Origin: Acidimicrobiaceae bacterium
Lineage (GTDB): Bacteria > Actinomycetota > Acidimicrobiia > Acidimicrobiales > Aldehydirespiratoraceae
DNA: 64,000 bases
Assembly: GCA_009837445.1 (NCBI GenBank)
Contig: VXTM01000038.1
Location: 1,920 to 65,919 of the forward strand
Direction of reading: 5' to 3'
The position numbers and the translations under genes are program-made. The notes under the pieces are model-generated. The model made no database searches. It was not told the origin of the DNA and saw nothing but the letters and a program-made list of their open reading frames with translations. This document shows, in pieces, positions 25,184 through 32,692 of this stretch. Numbering within the stretch: the stretch's first letter is position 1; every line of letters starts with the position of its first letter.

Positions 25184-25666
25184 TCAGCCCGCGGTCTTGG
25201 CCTGCTCGAAGATCACCTTTTTGAGGACGTCGTTGGCTGAGAATCGCCCGATCGGTCCGGTCGAGTAGACCGCATTGACGATGGCGCCCGAAGGATCCAC
25301 CAACCAGCCGGTGGCGTGCAGGAAGGTGCGATCACCCTCCTGGATGAATGCGCCGGTGGACCGGGCCACGGCCACCGCATCCAGCCCGGCAACCGCCTTC
25401 ACGTAGCCCAGCCGGAGCCCGGCGACGAGCTCGGCCGTGCGCTCGACGCTGTCCACCGAGCCGGCGACCACCCGGACGCCAAGGTTCTTCAACAGGTTCG
25501 CGCTGTGATCGAAGTCAACCAACTGTTGACGGCAGTACGGTCACCAGTGGCCCCGGTACAGCAGCACCGCGGCCCAGGAGTCGGCCACCAGGTCGGCAAC
25601 GTCGACGCGGTTCCCATCGAGGTCCTCGGCCGCGATGGCGGGCAATCGGTCTCCGTTGTTGAGCAC
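25184..25666 (-). CDS. Peroxiredoxin-like selenoprotein (Sec42, UxxC)
   Basis: 160-residue thioredoxin-fold AhpC/TSA (redoxin) family protein read through an in-frame TGA at codon 42 (25541-25543). The frame reads LLYRGHW-U-PYCRQQL; family relatives have Cys at this place (WCPYC), the peroxidatic or redox cysteine. Reading continues in the same frame to a normal stop with a full-length redoxin domain (VRVVAGSVDS, ATGWLVDPSG). The GTG at 25666 has GGGGAGG 5 bases upstream. A hairpin fitting the bacterial SECIS rules directly follows the TGA. It likely reduces peroxides or disulfides. A pseudogene with a Cys-to-stop change is the alternative. Stands alone, convergent with no partner gene. Confidence 0.8.
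25514..25543 (-). promoter_or_regulatory. Bacterial SECIS element of the peroxiredoxin-like gene
   Basis: TGA at 25543-25541, then after 10 bases a perfect 6-bp stem GTCAAC/GTTGAC (25530-25525 with 25519-25514) closing a 5-base loop AGTTG. The loop begins 16 bases past the TGA and has a G in its first two positions, as bacterial SECIS elements do. It would recruit SelB with Sec-tRNA. Computed by eye; no folding program was run. Confidence 0.7.
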
Positions 25667-25793
25667 GGGTCCTCCCCGGTGTGGATGCGGCCGCGGGTGA
25701 CGGCCGGGCACGACGCTAGCGACCGCAGCCCGAGCCGGACCCCTCTGGCCGACCGGCCGCCGGGAGAGGCCCCAGCCGGAAGGGACGGATAGC

Positions 25794-26573
25794 TTGCGCT
25801 CCATGAACCTTGCTGAAGTGCACGAGTCGGTCCTGGAGACGGTCAGCGACGGCGAGCCTCTGGCTGTGCCCCGCATGCGGCCCGGTGACGGGGGAACCCA
25901 CCCGCTGATCGTGATGTTCATGGACAAGCCCGGCATCCGGGAGGCTCTGCGCGCCTTCGGCAGGCGCCTCGCCTCCAGCGGCTACGACGTGATCCTGCCG
26001 GACCTCTACCACCGCCACGGGCGCATGATCGGCTACGGCCCGGCCGAGGCGGCCGCCGACCCGGGCGCCCAGGACCACATGATGATGCTGTTGAGGTCGC
26101 TCACCGACGAGGGCATCCAGAACGACCTCGACGCGGCCCTGGACGCAGTGGCGGCCGACCGGCCCGCGGGGTCCATGGAGCCCGCCGGCTGCATCGGCTT
26201 CTGCCTGGGGGCCCGGGCCGTGTTCCGGGCCATGATGCGCCTGCCCGACCAGTTCACCGTGGGCGCGATGTGGCATCCGTCGTTCCTGGTGGACGGTGAG
26301 ACCGACTCTCCCCACCTCACCGCGGGCGAGCTGGCCGGCTCGCTCTACGTGGGCTTCGGTGAGGCCGACCGGATGATGAGCGTGGCCAGCATGAGGCCGT
26401 TCATCAAGGCGGTGTCGGCTCTGGGCGACCGGGCCGTCGTCGACATCCTGCCCGGTGCGGACCACGCCTACACCTGGCCCGACGCGCATACCTACAACGA
26501 AGCCGCCGCGGCGCGGGCCTGGACCCAGACGCTGACCCTGTTCGGCAACGTGCTGGACCCGGAGCGTGGCTGA
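25794..26573 (+). CDS. Dienelactone hydrolase-family protein
   Basis: 259-residue alpha/beta hydrolase of the dienelactone hydrolase family. The nucleophile is the cysteine of GFCLGAR (about residue 140), as in DLH; the Asp and His follow in GEADRM and GADHAYTWPD. It hydrolyses a lactone or ester, but the substrate cannot be told. The TTG at 25794 has AAGGGA 9 bases upstream; the ATG at 25803 (MNLAEVHES) is an equally reasonable start. First of four overlapping genes; overlaps the FMN oxidase gene by 8 bases. Confidence 0.82.
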   Translation: MRSMNLAEVHESVLETVSDGEPLAVPRMRPGDGGTHPLIVMFMDKPGIREALRAFGRRLASSGYDVILPDLYHRHGRMIGYGPAEAAADPGAQDHMMMLLRSLTDEGIQNDLDAALDAVAADRPAGSMEPAGCIGFCLGARAVFRAMMRLPDQFTVGAMWHPSFLVDGETDSPHLTAGELAGSLYVGFGEADRMMSVASMRPFIKAVSALGDRAVVDILPGADHAYTWPDAHTYNEAAAARAWTQTLTLFGNVLDPERG

Positions 26574-27720: not shown

Positions 27721-28352
27721 GATTCGTCGAGGAGATCCTCCTGCTCCTGCTGCGCGATGACGATGGGAGATTCGTGGCCGTGCCCGGCATCGCGCTCGAC
27801 AATGCGATCGCGGGCGGCGTGCTCATGGACCTCGCGCTGGAGAACCGCATCGACACCGACCCGGAGCGTCTGATCCTGATCGACCCGACGCCGGTCGGCG
27901 ACAGCCTGCTGGACCCGACACTGGCCGCGATAGCCGGCGGCGAGCAGCGCGACGCCCTGTACTGGGTTGGGCAGACGGCCCGACGGGCTGGGGAGATCCG
28001 GCGGGAAGCGCTGGAGCGCCTGGTCGAGCGGGGCATCCTGGAGCACCACGAGGGACGCTTCCTGTGGGTCTTCCGCTCCCGGCGCTACCCGATCATCGAC
28101 GGCAGGGCCGAGCGCGAGGTGAAACTGCGCATCCTGGGCGTGCTGCTAAGCGACGAGATACCCGACCCGCGCGACGTTGTGATCATCGGCCTGGCCGAGG
28201 CCTGCGGCATCCTTCGCGAGCTGATGCCCAGGGGCGACTACGACCATGCCCGGGCCCGAATCGACCAGGTCCGCAAGCTGGATCTGATAGGACAGGCCAC
28301 CTTACGTGCGATCCACGACATAGAGATGTGGCTCGCCGCCGGACAGGCATAA
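27714..28352 (+). CDS. GPP34 (GOLPH3-like) domain protein
   Basis: 212-residue protein starting with LRFVEEILLLLLRDDDGRF, the opening of the GPP34 phosphoinositide-binding fold also found in many actinobacteria. The blocks AIAGGVLMDLALENRIDT and ERLVERGILEHHEGRFLW fit the family. In bacteria its role is unknown, perhaps membrane association. It begins GTG TTG overlapping the stop of the FMN enzyme and ends 2 bases before the transporter start, so it belongs to the same operon. Confidence 0.82.
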   Translation: MLRFVEEILLLLLRDDDGRFVAVPGIALDNAIAGGVLMDLALENRIDTDPERLILIDPTPVGDSLLDPTLAAIAGGEQRDALYWVGQTARRAGEIRREALERLVERGILEHHEGRFLWVFRSRRYPIIDGRAEREVKLRILGVLLSDEIPDPRDVVIIGLAEACGILRELMPRGDYDHARARIDQVRKLDLIGQATLRAIHDIEMWLAAGQA

Positions 28353-28354
28353 GG

Positions 28355-29230
28355 ATGAGCGCAACCCCGACACCGGAGCAGACGGCCGCACAACTGGTGC
28401 GAGCCGGCGTCGGGAAGGCCCGCGCCATGATGGCGTCCACCGTGGTGCTGGCGGTGATGGCCGGCGCGTTCGTCGCGCTGGGCGCCATGCTGACGAGCAC
28501 GATCGCGGCCCAGTCGACGCTGGGCGCGGGACCCACCCGGCTCCTCATGGGGCTGGGACTGACGATGGGCCTGTTCTTCGTGGTGGTCACCGGCGCCGAG
28601 CTGTTCACCGGCAACAACCTCATGGTGATGGGCGTCCTCAGCCGCACGATTCTGGCGAGGGAGCTGGCCCGCAACTGGGCGCTGGTGTACGTGGGCAACC
28701 TGATCGGCGCCCTCGTCATCGTGATGCTGGTTTTCTACGGCCGCTGGTGGGAGCAGGGGGACTTCTCGTTCTCCGAGTTCTCGGTGACATCGGCCGACGC
28801 CAAGGTGAACCTGTCGTTCGGGATCGCCTTCCTGCGGGGCATCGTGGCCAACATGCTGGTCTGCCTGGGCGTGTGGATGGCCACCGCGGGTCGCACGGTC
28901 ACCGACAAGCTGCTGGCGGTGTTCCTGCCGGTAACGGCCTTCGTGGCGGGCGGGTTCGAGCACTCGGTCGCCAACATGTTCTTCCTGCCGTTCGGGGCGC
29001 TCGTCGCCGCCGATGCCGACGCCCTGGCCGCCGCGGGTCTCACGGCCGCCGACGTGAGCCGGCTGGACATTGCCGGTATCGCCCAGAACCTGGTGGCCGT
29101 CACGCTCGGCAACATCGTCGGCGGCGTCCTAGTCGGCCTGGCCGACTGGACCGTCCACCTGCGCCGCCGCGCCGTAGCCGCCGCCGCAGCCGCAAGAGGC
29201 GAGAACGTGCGCGGGGACCCCGATCCCTAG
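28355..29230 (+). CDS. Formate/nitrite transporter family protein
   Basis: 291-residue FNT-family channel with six predicted helices. The family motifs GAELFTGNNLMVMG and GGFEHSVANMFFLPFG are intact. FNT proteins carry formate, nitrite or hydrosulfide across the membrane; formate is favoured because a formate dehydrogenase lies 0.8 kb away, but it is in a different transcription unit. The ATG at 28355 is preceded by AAGG, only 3 bases after the GPP34 stop. Its TAG shares the CTAG palindrome with the stop of the convergent hydratase gene. Confidence 0.87.
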   Translation: MSATPTPEQTAAQLVRAGVGKARAMMASTVVLAVMAGAFVALGAMLTSTIAAQSTLGAGPTRLLMGLGLTMGLFFVVVTGAELFTGNNLMVMGVLSRTILARELARNWALVYVGNLIGALVIVMLVFYGRWWEQGDFSFSEFSVTSADAKVNLSFGIAFLRGIVANMLVCLGVWMATAGRTVTDKLLAVFLPVTAFVAGGFEHSVANMFFLPFGALVAADADALAAAGLTAADVSRLDIAGIAQNLVAVTLGNIVGGVLVGLADWTVHLRRRAVAAAAAARGENVRGDPDP

Positions 29231-30018
29231 AGGCTCGCTGACACCGTGCCGACGTTTTCTATCTCGGCGTGTATCTCGTCGCCGGGGGTTAGGGGCAGCA
29301 TCCCGCATAGGGAGCCGGTCATGATGGTCTCGCCTGCTTGTAGCGGGGTGCCGTGCTGGCACATAGCGTCGGCCAGCCACAGCACCGAGTTCAGCGGGTT
29401 GCCCAGGCAGGCGGCTCCGTTGCCGGTGGCGGCCGGCTCGCCGTTGATAGTCAGCTCCATCTCCACCCGGCGCAGGTCCACTGCGCTCAACGGCACCGGG
29501 CGGGTTCCGAGCACGTAGAGGCCACTGCCCGCGTTGTCGGCGATCATGTCGAAGTTGGTGATGTCCCACCGAAGGCGGCTGTCAACGATCTCCAGCGCGG
29601 GCAGCACGTAGGCCGTCGCGCTGATCACGTCGGCCACGGTGTGCTGGTCCTTGTCGAGGTCAGCGCCGAGCACCACCGCGACCTCGACCTCGACCCGCGG
29701 CTCGATCAGCCCGGCGCCGCCGATGTCGTCGCCGTCGGTGCGGCACTTGTCGGCGTACAGGACGCCCCAGATGGGCTCGTCCATGCCGAGCTGCTCCTGC
29801 ACAGCCGGGTTGGTCAGACCCACCTTGTGCCCGCTGATCCGCCGGCCGCTGGTGAGCCAGTGATCGGTGTTGATCTGCTGCACCGCGTACCCGGCCTCGG
29901 GGCTGGCCGAGGAACCCAGCAGGCCGCGCACCGGCTCGCAGGGAACACCGGCGGCCATCGCATCTCGCAGTTGCCCGGCCGCTTCCGCGAGCGCGCCCGG
30001 CATGGGTGAATCGTTCAT
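29227..30018 (-). CDS. 2-keto-4-pentenoate hydratase / 2-oxohepta-3-ene-dioate hydratase family protein
   Basis: 263-residue fumarylacetoacetate-hydrolase-superfamily protein of the MhpD type (GHKVGLTNPAVQEQLGMDEPIWG, VEVEVAVVLGADL, a metal-binding EVEVA cluster). Members hydrate 2-hydroxypenta-2,4-dienoate or decarboxylate oxalocrotonate in meta-cleavage pathways. No other aromatic ring-cleavage gene is nearby, so the physiological substrate is open. It lies 51 bases downstream of the formate dehydrogenase operon on the same strand and may be read with it. Its stop shares CTAG with the transporter. Confidence 0.82.
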   Translation of the reverse strand: MNDSPMPGALAEAAGQLRDAMAAGVPCEPVRGLLGSSASPEAGYAVQQINTDHWLTSGRRISGHKVGLTNPAVQEQLGMDEPIWGVLYADKCRTDGDDIGGAGLIEPRVEVEVAVVLGADLDKDQHTVADVISATAYVLPALEIVDSRLRWDITNFDMIADNAGSGLYVLGTRPVPLSAVDLRRVEMELTINGEPAATGNGAACLGNPLNSVLWLADAMCQHGTPLQAGETIMTGSLCGMLPLTPGDEIHAEIENVGTVSASL

Positions 30019-30068: not shown

Positions 30069-30932
30069 TCACTCGCCGTGGACGTACTGCCAGCCGAAGC
30101 GGCCCTTGATGCACAGGTGGCCGCTGGTCACCGAATGGTCGGACGGCGAGGTGACCTTCACGATCCGCTCGTCCTGCACATGCAGGTCGAGGTTGCAGCC
30201 CACGCCGCAGTAGGAGCACACCGTGCGGGTGACGGTCTGGTCCTCGGGACGCCACTCCCCCACCTCGCGCAGGTCGTACTCGGTCTTGAACTGGAGCGCG
30301 CCGGTGGGGCACACGCCCACGCAGTTGCCGCAGTAGACGCAGGCCGAGTCGGGCAGGGTCACGTCGAACTCGGTGGAGATCCGGGCGTCGAAGCCCCGGC
30401 CGGCCACCGCGATGGCGAAGGTGTGCTGGGCGTCGTCGCCGCAGGCCTCCACGCACTTGTAGCACAGCACGCACTTCGAGTAGTCCCGGATGTAGAGCTC
30501 GTCCTGGACCTTGACCGGCTCGTCCACCCGCTCGACGGGATGGTCCTCGTCGGAGTAGCGGTCGGGGTCGGCGCCGTAGACGTCCATCCAGTGGTGCAGG
30601 TCCTCGGCCTGGCTCAGGTCCACGCCGGAGCCCAGGAACTCGAGCACCATGCGGCGGCTGTGGCGCACCCGGGGGGTGTCGGTCTGGACGACCATCCCCT
30701 CTTCGGCCGGGCGCGAGCACGACGGCACCAGCGCCCGGGATCCCTCAAGCTCCACCACGCACACCCGGCACACGTTGACCGGGGTGAGGTTCTCGGCCCA
30801 GCACAAGGTCGGGGTATCGATACCGGCCTGGACGCAGGCGGCGTGGATGGTGGAGCCCTCGGCCACCTCCACCGGCTGCCCATCGACTGTGATCGTGACG
30901 GCCGTCTCGGTGATCGTGGCGGCGCCGGTCAT
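30069..30932 (-). CDS. Formate dehydrogenase Fe-S subunit (N-terminal half of the alpha chain)
   Basis: 287-residue electron-transfer protein equivalent to the N-terminal part of NAD-dependent FdhA/FdsA and NuoG. Order: 2Fe-2S domain (C-x-n-CRVC), His/Cys 4Fe-4S region, two 4Fe-4S motifs (CVLCYKCVEAC and CVYCGNCVGVCP, about residues 153-220), then the Mo-type 4Fe-4S domain CSYCGVGCNLDLHV. It ends just after CIKGRFGWQYVH, exactly where an intact alpha chain would continue into the molybdopterin domain, which is the separate gene at 32696-34624. Its start overlaps the NuoEF-like stop (ATGA). Both pieces presumably assemble into one enzyme. Confidence 0.85.
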   Translation of the reverse strand: MTGAATITETAVTITVDGQPVEVAEGSTIHAACVQAGIDTPTLCWAENLTPVNVCRVCVVELEGSRALVPSCSRPAEEGMVVQTDTPRVRHSRRMVLEFLGSGVDLSQAEDLHHWMDVYGADPDRYSDEDHPVERVDEPVKVQDELYIRDYSKCVLCYKCVEACGDDAQHTFAIAVAGRGFDARISTEFDVTLPDSACVYCGNCVGVCPTGALQFKTEYDLREVGEWRPEDQTVTRTVCSYCGVGCNLDLHVQDERIVKVTSPSDHSVTSGHLCIKGRFGWQYVHGE

Positions 30933-32692
30933 GAGGGTGCCGACGCTATCAGGCCCAGTGAGAGGGCGGAGCGGACCGCGGAGGCGGCGGTGTGGCCCAA
31001 ACCGCAGATGGAGGCGTCCACCATCACCTCGGCCATCTCGTCGATCAGGGCCCGGCGGGACGGCGAGAGCGACCCCCGCTTCTGCATCTGCACCAGGGTC
31101 TCGTGCTGGCGCACCGCCCCGACCCGGCACGGCACGCACTGACCGCACGACTCGTCCCGGAAGAACTCGGCGATGCGCACCACCACATCGGTCATGTCCA
31201 CCGACGAGTCGAACGCCATCACCACTCCGGAGCCGAGGGTGGTGCCCGCGGCCCGGGTGTCCTCCAGGGTGAGCGGCAGATCCAGCGAGTCGGGGCCGAC
31301 GAACGACCCGGCCGCGCCGCCCATCAGCACGGCCTGAAGCTCGCCGGTGCCGGCCACACCGCCGGCCAGCTCCAGCAGGACGCCCAGCGTGGTGCCGAAC
31401 GGAACCTCGTAGAGGCCGGGCCGTCCGACCTTCCCGGACAGGCACAGCAGCTTGGTGCCCGGCGAGCGCTCCGTTCCCCGGGTCCGGTAGTCGTCAGGAC
31501 CGTCGAGAATGATGTCGAGCACGTTGAGCAGGGTCTCGGGGTTGTTGATGGCCGTCGGCTCGCCGAAGAGGCCGTGGGTGGTGGGGAACGGCGGCTTGTT
31601 GCGGGGCTCGCCCCGGAAGCCCTCCAGCGAGTTGAACAGGGCGGTCTCCTCGCCGCAGATGTAGGCGCCCGCCCCCCGCCAGATGGCGATGTCGAAGTCG
31701 TGGCCCGTGCCGGCCGCATCCGGACCGAGCAGGCCGGCAGCCCGGGCCGCGTCGATGGCGCCCTGCAGGCGGGCGGTGGCCAGCGGATACTCGCCCCGGA
31801 TGTAGATCCAGCCGTTCTGGGCTCCGGTGGCCAGGCCGGCGATGGTCATGGACTCGATCACCGCGAACGGGTCGTGCTCCATCACGATGCGGTCCTTGAA
31901 CGTGCCCGGCTCGGACTCGTCGCAGTTGGCCACCACATGCTTGGGCCGTCCCGACTCGGCGGCTACGGCCCGCCACTTAACGCCGGTCGGGAAGGCCGCT
32001 CCGCCCCGTCCCGACAGCCCCGAGGCGGCCACCGCCTCAAGAACCGCATCGGCCCCCATCTCGCCGGCCCGCTGCAGGGCCTCGTAGCCGCCGTGGGCGC
32101 GATAGGACTCCAGCGACTCGGGGTCGGCCACCCCGATGCGGCGCAGCAGCCTCAGCGACGGGTCGCCGGCCTGGGGCAGCGCGAAGGGCTCGGCGTCGGC
32201 GGGCACGTGGTCGGGCCGACCGCCCGACCCCTGCACGAATAGCGCGGGGGCCCGCTCGCACTGGCCGAGGCACGGCCCCAAGTGGACATGGCCGCCCGAG
32301 GCCCTGACCGAGGCGGCCAGGTCGTCGTAGCCGGCGATCTGGCAGGCCGCGTCGACACACACGTGGAACGTGTCGCCCTCGTGGTCCGGGGGCTCGGTCC
32401 GGAACAGGTCGTAGAAGGTGGCCACGCCGAAGGCCTCGGCGGGGGGCACGCCCAGCACGTCGGCCACGTAGTTGATGCCGCCGGGGCTGATCCATCCGAC
32501 CGCGTTCTGGAGGGCGTGCAGCGCGGGCAGAAGGAAGTGGCGCCGCTGGAGGCGCCGGGCCCGCCCGGAGATGTACAGCCGCTCGGTCTCGGACTGCACC
32601 ACGGCGTCCACGCCCCGGTCACGCAGCGCCTCATCGACCGCGGCGGCTTCAGCGTCGGTGGCGCGGTCCGCGCCCAGATAGATGTCGGTCAT
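30929..32692 (-). CDS. NAD-dependent formate dehydrogenase beta subunit (NuoE-NuoF fusion)
   Basis: 587-residue NADH-binding flavoprotein. Residues 1-170 resemble NuoE with 2Fe-2S cysteines (CVDAACQIAGY, HLGPCLGQCERAP); the rest is NuoF with GRGGAAFPTGVKW for NADH/FMN, NCDESEPGTFKDR and a C-terminal 4Fe-4S motif ESCGQCVPCRVG. It passes electrons from the Fe-S subunit to NAD+. Middle gene of the three; starts 3 bases after the catalytic-subunit stop and ends in an ATGA overlap. An NADP-linked or bifurcating variant cannot be excluded. Confidence 0.9.
   Translation of the reverse strand: MTDIYLGADRATDAEAAAVDEALRDRGVDAVVQSETERLYISGRARRLQRRHFLLPALHALQNAVGWISPGGINYVADVLGVPPAEAFGVATFYDLFRTEPPDHEGDTFHVCVDAACQIAGYDDLAASVRASGGHVHLGPCLGQCERAPALFVQGSGGRPDHVPADAEPFALPQAGDPSLRLLRRIGVADPESLESYRAHGGYEALQRAGEMGADAVLEAVAASGLSGRGGAAFPTGVKWRAVAAESGRPKHVVANCDESEPGTFKDRIVMEHDPFAVIESMTIAGLATGAQNGWIYIRGEYPLATARLQGAIDAARAAGLLGPDAAGTGHDFDIAIWRGAGAYICGEETALFNSLEGFRGEPRNKPPFPTTHGLFGEPTAINNPETLLNVLDIILDGPDDYRTRGTERSPGTKLLCLSGKVGRPGLYEVPFGTTLGVLLELAGGVAGTGELQAVLMGGAAGSFVGPDSLDLPLTLEDTRAAGTTLGSGVVMAFDSSVDMTDVVVRIAEFFRDESCGQCVPCRVGAVRQHETLVQMQKRGSLSPSRRALIDEMAEVMVDASICGLGHTAASAVRSALSLGLIASAPS

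Follow-up and report, generated by a model that had tools for sequence, protein, structure and literature searches.

The locus described here raises the question of whether a TGA codon that interrupts an otherwise open redoxin frame is translated as selenocysteine (Sec) or marks a gene in decay. The gene lies on the (-) strand of the window, the 64,000-nucleotide stretch of Acidimicrobiaceae DNA that was analyzed as a whole, and its frame, conservation, selenocysteine machinery, RNA-level constraint and protein family were computed here. The answer, to which we give a probability of about 0.95, is that it encodes a selenoprotein with a UxxC redox pair, in which Sec would be inserted at residue 42 with the help of a hairpin recognized by SelB.

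An in-frame TGA conserved across one order

The peroxiredoxin-like (Prx-like) gene occupies positions 25184..25666 of the (-) strand and comprises a frame of 160 codons from a GTG start to a TGA stop. Its sole interruption is the TGA at codon 42 (25541..25543, (-) strand), found within the motif YRGHW-U-PYC (U being Sec), where the TGC codon of Cys45, the partner of Sec42 in U-P-Y-C, follows at 25532..25534 (-). The sequence GGGGAGGA (25670..25677, (-) strand), recognized by eye directly 5′ of the GTG start and at short spacing from it, is a likely ribosome-binding site. Re-reading of the frame confirms the position, strand, codon and motif given in the initial annotation. The standard code divides the gene at the TGA: one frame (25541..25936) terminates there, and a TTG-started fragment of 112 amino acids (25184..25522, (-) strand) lies 3′ of it. 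Routine gene finding would probably split the gene in two. The initial annotation also pointed to the frame staying open to a normal stop after the TGA. This openness is real, but it has been rejected as proof on its own, because in this GC-rich window 187 TGAs, counted over six frames, are preceded by at least 40 and followed by at least 60 open codons.

Relatives were collected by protein search in samples that overlap. Matches at an E-value of 1e-8 were obtained in 17 of 149 relatives, and 11 of these had the TGA; a sample of 397 genomes of the order yielded 35 matches at 1e-12. A sample of 396 genomes of the phylum yielded 3 matches, and the 4 matches in 395 genomes of the class had all been found before. 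The TGA form is present in 31 genomes including the window's own (loci L028-L038 and L051-L070), which belong to eight families (f1, f17, f18, f28, f42, f52, f57 and f59) of one order. Two of the 31 are represented by named records as well: MAG Acidimicrobiaceae bacterium SB0673_bin_3 (L045), from a family of the Actinomycetota, and Acidimicrobiia bacterium p16x60bins.22 (L046). The TGA occupies the identical alignment column in every one of the 31, with an ATG, GTG or TTG 39-44 codons upstream and 113-126 open codons downstream. The inner stop is TGA in every case, and the end stops are divided among TGA (13), TAG (13) and TAA (5). Further stops listed for G077 (a second TGA), G192 (a TAG) and the Cys form G413 (its single TGA) proved to be end stops only. 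Identity to the window's protein ranges from 43 to 97% for 27 proteins compared and from 48 to 50% for the other three. The motif is U-P-Y-C in 30 of the 31 TGA forms and U-S-F-C in L038. The gene is patchily distributed, being found in 3 of 16 genomes of its own genus.

The initial annotation held that relatives carry Cys where this gene has its TGA. Eleven relatives do have TGC or TGT at this column (L039, L040, L041, L047-L049, L072, L073, G162, G303 and G413), including the Chloroflexota loci from Ktedonobacter and Dictyobacter (L047-L049), which show the motif GHWCPYCRQQL; the distant loci L042-L044 have Cys likewise. When 31 Sec proteins were combined with 10 Cys proteins in one tree, which was rooted at the midpoint and for which the program warned that long branches meet, the Sec proteins make up one side of a single branch (SH-aLRT 99), so that one switch between Cys and Sec is sufficient. 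Other stops and a decayed downstream frame in close strains had been named beforehand as signs that would speak against a selenoprotein; neither was found. The codons past position 52 evolve with dN/dS values of 0.05-0.33 in all eight pairs chosen, and those before the TGA with values of 0.05-0.40.

The RNA directly downstream of the TGA

A putative SECIS hairpin is located at 25514..25530 (-), with the stem GTCAAC/GTTGAC and the loop AGTTG. A stem of 6 bp and a loop of five bases with G in second place, starting 16 bases past the TGA, had already been described in the initial annotation, which also placed the hairpin 17 bases after the TGA. The former features hold, and the latter figure has to be corrected, as the stem starts 10 bases and the loop 16 bases after the TGA. 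The bacterial SECIS (bSECIS) model, as given in the accessible part of PMC13188914, allows a loop of 3-9 nt, a stem of 4-16 bp and a spacing of 16-37 nt, with a G in the first two loop bases and an energy at or below -7.5 kcal/mol. The geometry of the hairpin (loop AGUUG, 6 bp) agrees with this model, its spacing of 16 being the lower limit of the published range. Its energy depends on the length folded: the core reaches -5.5 kcal/mol and a 48-nt fold that contains it -9.4 kcal/mol, against the -7.5 kcal/mol of the model. Shuffled sequences were as good in 131, 163 and 143 of 200 cases for 48, 54 and 67 nt, respectively, and the minimum-energy fold includes the hairpin when 48 or 54 nt are folded, but not when 34, 60 or 67 nt are. 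Among 60-nt folds of 11 Sec loci, it appears in three (L031, L032 and, with a bulge, L034).

Hairpins of this kind are not rare in the window. Of 2536 sense codons in seven window genes, 190 (7%) are followed by a Watson-Crick stem of at least 6 pairs whose loop size, spacing and loop G are within the permitted range, and 457 if one G-U pair is accepted; a perfect 6-bp stem at the exact spacing and loop size follows two. Since a comparable hairpin occurs after 7% of sense codons and the energy is unremarkable, the hairpin has been rejected as stand-alone proof. The initial annotation gave it too much weight, and it is the comparative evidence that carries the case. An Rfam scan of the window gave no match at gathering scores.

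The strongest signal at the RNA level is found in the codons themselves. Codons 46-52 (CGT CAA CAG TTG GTT GAC TTC; 25511..25531, (-) strand) are almost invariant synonymously in the 31 genomes, with a mean synonymous difference of 0.045 vs 0.51 in the 94 other usable columns. No non-overlapping run of seven columns falls below 0.41, and 200,000 random draws of seven columns never yielded a value as low as that of codons 46-52. CGT, CAG and GAC are each used in 31 of 31 sequences, and CAA in all 26 that have Gln at its position. In the gene of the window, third positions are G or C in 88% of codons elsewhere vs 57% within this stretch. Such a synonymous freeze is as expected of a SECIS element, and both the freeze and the recurrence of TGA at one codon across 31 genomes are far beyond chance. 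The RNA case has been rested on this freeze, as the support from energy, folding and covariation is weak.

Regarding covariation, the stem is paired in 95.4% of cells (18 distinct rows), a pair count equalled by 54 of 500 shuffles, and one change is two-sided. The 17-nt core (GUCAAC AGUUG GUUGAC) is identical in 24 of the 31 genomes, five distinct cores exist among all of them, and the loop is AGTTA in two. The core of L038 (GTCGGC/GTCGAC) carries the two-sided change, in which one A-U is replaced by G-C, together with a change of one A-U to G-U. The stem has one mismatch in L034, L051 and L058 and two in L054, the source being a Gln-to-His codon after Arg46 that creates a C.U mismatch. Two mismatched cores, when folded alone, regain six pairs by bulging out one base, which leaves AGUU as the loop; within 34 nt, this remains true of L034, but not of L054. 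The Cys relatives lack the stem, forming 1 to 4 of the 6 pairs in eight loci.

The same selenoprotein might instead depend on another RNA element, a hairpin of eight pairs at 25518..25541 of the window with the loop CCGTCAA. It is paired in 97.2% of cells vs 95.4% for the hairpin described above, it is the minimum-energy fold of the window's 34-nt stretch, with a similar fold winning in L038 and L054, and codons 43-45, which lie in its 5′ arm, show a synonymous difference below average (0.19-0.36). Against it, two-sided changes are absent, columns 6 and 9 of the 5′ arm vary, the nearly invariant columns 28-33 fall outside it, and its loop starts 8 nt past the UGA, outside the 16-37 nt of the model. 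We therefore consider it unlikely, though worth keeping in mind, that this second structure is the element recognized.

Selenocysteine machinery and competing readings

The absence of selB or selC from the genome had been put forward in advance as an observation that would tell against Sec. Both genes are present, as are selA and selD, in the same draft genome (3.9 Mb, 52 contigs, 93.8% complete). The tRNA-Sec gene is found at C51:124783-124874 with 68.3 bits (cut-off 47), and ARAGORN assigns it as tRNA-SeC with the anticodon TCA. The gene for SelA lies at C21:107264 (370.9 bits, cut-off 268) near that for SelB at C21:110006 (277.9 bits, cut-off 242). The selD gene at C6:36209 (L026 1501-2415; 359.6 bits, cut-off 125) has an in-frame TGA of its own, in GAG-U-GCK. 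A second match to the tRNA-Sec model (L010 1502-1589, G000:C21:205279-205366; 48.5 bits) was discarded as a false Rfam-model match, being a tRNA-Ser(TGA) according to ARAGORN.

Among the relatives, selA is matched at an E-value of 1e-20 in 30 of the 31 Sec-form genomes and scores above the cut-off in 29. The sole genome with no match (G411) is 73% complete, and G119 shows a partial match below the cut-off. The gene is also found in six of eight Cys-form genomes (it is absent from G130 and G303) and, within the genus and family, in 19 of 20 genomes that lack the redoxin gene. The presence of selA therefore fits the reading as a selenoprotein gene, but is not specific to it.

Several readings of the TGA that dispense with Sec, or relegate it, have been weighed against these data. 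One could suppose that a gene for a Cys redoxin is decaying and that its TGA arose by nonsense mutation or assembly error, as TGA is one base away from TGC and TGT and the genome is a draft; yet the same codon is TGA in 31 genomes with frames of normal length, at protein identities that span 43-97% in the 27 compared, and the low dN/dS after codon 52 in the eight chosen pairs points to selection on what follows. Pseudogene and assembly error have accordingly been rejected, and we regard them as extremely improbable. A comparably negligible chance is given to the proposal that UGA is another sense codon in this organism (e.g., for Trp) and that Sec is not involved. The frame would indeed be open whatever residue the TGA encodes, but TGA is also the end stop of the window's gene and of 13 of the 31 genes, the genome holds the full Sec machinery, the TGA occupies a Cys column next to a Trp, and constraint acts on the RNA directly 3′ of it; general reassignment has been rejected on these grounds.

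A third proposal treats the UGA as a regulated stop, at which mostly a peptide of 41 residues would be made and the full-length selenoprotein only when selenium is plentiful. Readthrough of UGA is generally incomplete, which lends this proposal some plausibility. Nevertheless, 41 residues hold no complete domain, as the AhpC-TSA match extends over residues 5-129, and selection acts over the full frame, so that a main role for the short peptide appears very unlikely. Sec insertion at codon 42 is predicted with near certainty from the comparative data.

According to the mechanism proposed for this selenoprotein, SelB carrying Sec-tRNA(Sec) would bind the hairpin that starts 10 nt past the UGA, and selenocysteine would be inserted at residue 42 in place of termination. 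Sec42 would then act as the nucleophile and Cys45 as the resolving residue of the U-P-Y-C pair, which would cycle via a selenenylsulfide as it reduces either a peroxide or a disulfide, and might be re-reduced by a thioredoxin-type system. This chemistry, together with the cellular location, reductant and substrate of the protein, is what we infer for the product.

A predicted UxxC redoxin and its known counterparts

The read-through product matches PF00578 (AhpC-TSA) with 53.3 bits (cut-off 26) and PF08534 (Redoxin) with 43.6 bits (cut-off 26.6), and both matches span the TGA. PF00578 is also matched at an E-value of 0.001 by all 35 members of the protein alignment A2. The designation peroxiredoxin-like given at the outset is therefore well founded, although the protein is not a canonical peroxiredoxin: the Thr or Ser that precedes the peroxidatic residue by three positions in those enzymes (TxxC or TxxU) is lacking, Sec42 standing in the place of the Thr. 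A profile comparison with solved structures ranks the peroxiredoxins 6q5v (7e-13) and 5xbs (5e-12) first, followed by Bcp/PrxQ, AhpC and ResA; the best 60 of 128 matches comprise 53 of the peroxiredoxin kind and seven of ResA. With the window's protein alone, the best structure match is ResA (4.7e-6). These Pfam and PDB sequence matches suggest that the product is a single-domain redoxin with a thioredoxin fold. The residues shared without exception by the 35 A2 proteins are R38, G39, W41, U/C42, C45, L49, F52, S70, V71, D72, D96, P125, G140 and R141, the last encoded at 25244..25246 (-).

Sec42 and Cys45 likely form the UxxC pair of a Prx-like thiol:disulfide oxidoreductase or thiol peroxidase. 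Whether the main role is peroxide reduction, as a Sec-dependent thiol peroxidase, in preference to disulfide exchange is a matter on which the data are nearly balanced; we give peroxide reduction somewhat less than an even chance, and it is compatible with the selenoprotein reading. It is favored by the predominance of peroxiredoxins, AhpC and Bcp among the best structure matches and by the alignment of the invariant G140-R141 with the GR of 6q5v. On the side of disulfide exchange are the ResA match of the single protein and the alignment with 6q5v itself, in which T-P-V-C lies over U-P-Y-C and places Sec42 at the Thr and Cys45 at the Cys. Aligned with ResA, Sec42 coincides with the first Cys of WCPHC, and the UxxC motif resembles this arrangement and not the TxxU that the accessible part of PMC13188914 gives for Sec peroxiredoxins.

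Several classes of known proteins come close to this one. The accessible text of PMC13188914 lists a "Prx-like thiol:disulfide oxidoreductase" (PF00578, UxxC/UxxU) and a "Redoxin family protein" (PF08534, UxxC), and that of PMC9312934 the same selenoprotein classes. Earlier, 22 Prx-like selenoproteins were described in the Sargasso Sea data, 21 with UXXC and one with UXC vs the TXXU of Sec peroxiredoxins (PMC1088965, as far as accessible), and 225 UxxC sequences were named "Prx-like 1" in the GOS data (accessible part of PMC2398784). With the first class (including "Prx-like 1"), which is bacterial, our protein shares a PF00578 score above the cut-off and UxxC; the likeness is one of domain and motif description, and the clade found here has its TGA in one order only, among the genomes sampled. 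The Redoxin class, likened by the same kind of description, shares UxxC and a PF08534 score above the cut-off, with PF00578 scoring higher here. The peroxiredoxin-like selenoproteins of cd02970/pfam13911 (AhpC-TSA_2) carry UxxS where described in the accessible parts of PMC13188914 and PMC9312934, in contrast to the UxxC found here, and PF13911 is not among the Pfam matches of the window's protein at an E-value of 0.1. Sec peroxiredoxins with TxxU (PrxU and others) belong to the same AhpC/TSA family, but our protein has Sec at the Thr position and Cys at the peroxidatic position, and scores 14.9 bits with the PrxU model NF040737 (cut-off 270). ResA/TlpA thiol-disulfide oxidoreductases have CxxC at the same place (GTWCPHC vs GHWUPYC), the first of these Cys residues being Sec here; inspection of the 160 residues by eye revealed neither a signal peptide nor an anchor, and the ResA model gives 23.2 bits (cut-off 170). 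The best NCBIfam match is the SelL-related redox protein NF040769, at 26.4 bits far under its cut-off of 120.

Other redoxin genes of the same genome also hold inner TGAs. Two AhpC-TSA genes, which we take to be Bcp/PrxQ-like, have a TGA in TAG-U-T (TxxU): L002 1501-1866 (G000:C47:13617-13982) and L001 1501-1887 (G000:C12:14215-14601). Both likely encode Sec peroxiredoxins, with possible hairpins 3′ of the TGA. Two more redoxin genes have a TGA at the active site, in WSSW-U-GCR (L004 1501-1839, G000:C39:282614-282952) and in WAPH-U-PTCR (L095 1005-1343, G000:C39:397604-397942). Five of the 11 AhpC-TSA matches of the genome, the window's included, contain an inner TGA, and the selenoproteome thus looks rich in redoxins.

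The genes around the locus code for a circularly permuted ATP-grasp protein, an Alpha-E protein, a dienelactone hydrolase and an FMN-dependent dehydrogenase. When the window was compared with 20 related loci, leaving aside the redoxin and overlapping antisense frames, the most widely shared ORFs occurred in just four of the 21 (including the window, G008, G009 and G142), indicating that the gene has no conserved operon partner. A search of phage records gave no match to the redoxin, and viral contigs gave one distant match over residues 1-54 (L098). Further along the window, 30069..32692 (-) encodes a NuoEF-like fusion and a Fer2/Fer4/Molybdop_Fe4S4 protein, a combination known from NAD-dependent formate dehydrogenases, and a formate/nitrite transporter is encoded nearby (28064..29230, (+) strand); the next listed gene on the (-) strand is an FAA hydrolase (29227..30018) and not a catalytic molybdopterin subunit.

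Since Prx-like classes with UxxC have already been published, the kind of selenoprotein is known, and the gene is a well-supported, ordinary addition to the Prx-like/Redoxin UxxC selenoproteins, its class being assigned by domain and motif description. A literature search that covered few subscription journals found no paper naming Acidimicrobiia or Acidimicrobiales together with selenoproteins. The gene brings a firm selenoprotein, whose SECIS element is strongly conserved, to the Acidimicrobiia, the lineage given by the two named records. Because genes of this type may readily survive in annotations as mere pieces, estimates of redox capacity in these genomes are probably too low. The hairpin, short as it is and with several natural variants, also lends itself well to studies of what SelB reads. 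More tentatively, and with odds that we would set below those of a peroxidase role, the proteins might constitute an uncatalogued, lineage-bound Prx-like subfamily that is Sec-only in one actinobacterial order, and whose shared SECIS element overrides codon choice and can re-pair by a bulge after the Gln-to-His change. No Cys member is found inside the Sec clade, and the UGA has been kept in 31 members over deep protein divergence. If such a subfamily exists, it would offer a natural series for SelB-SECIS recognition and would point to an enzymatic task for which Cys is insufficient.
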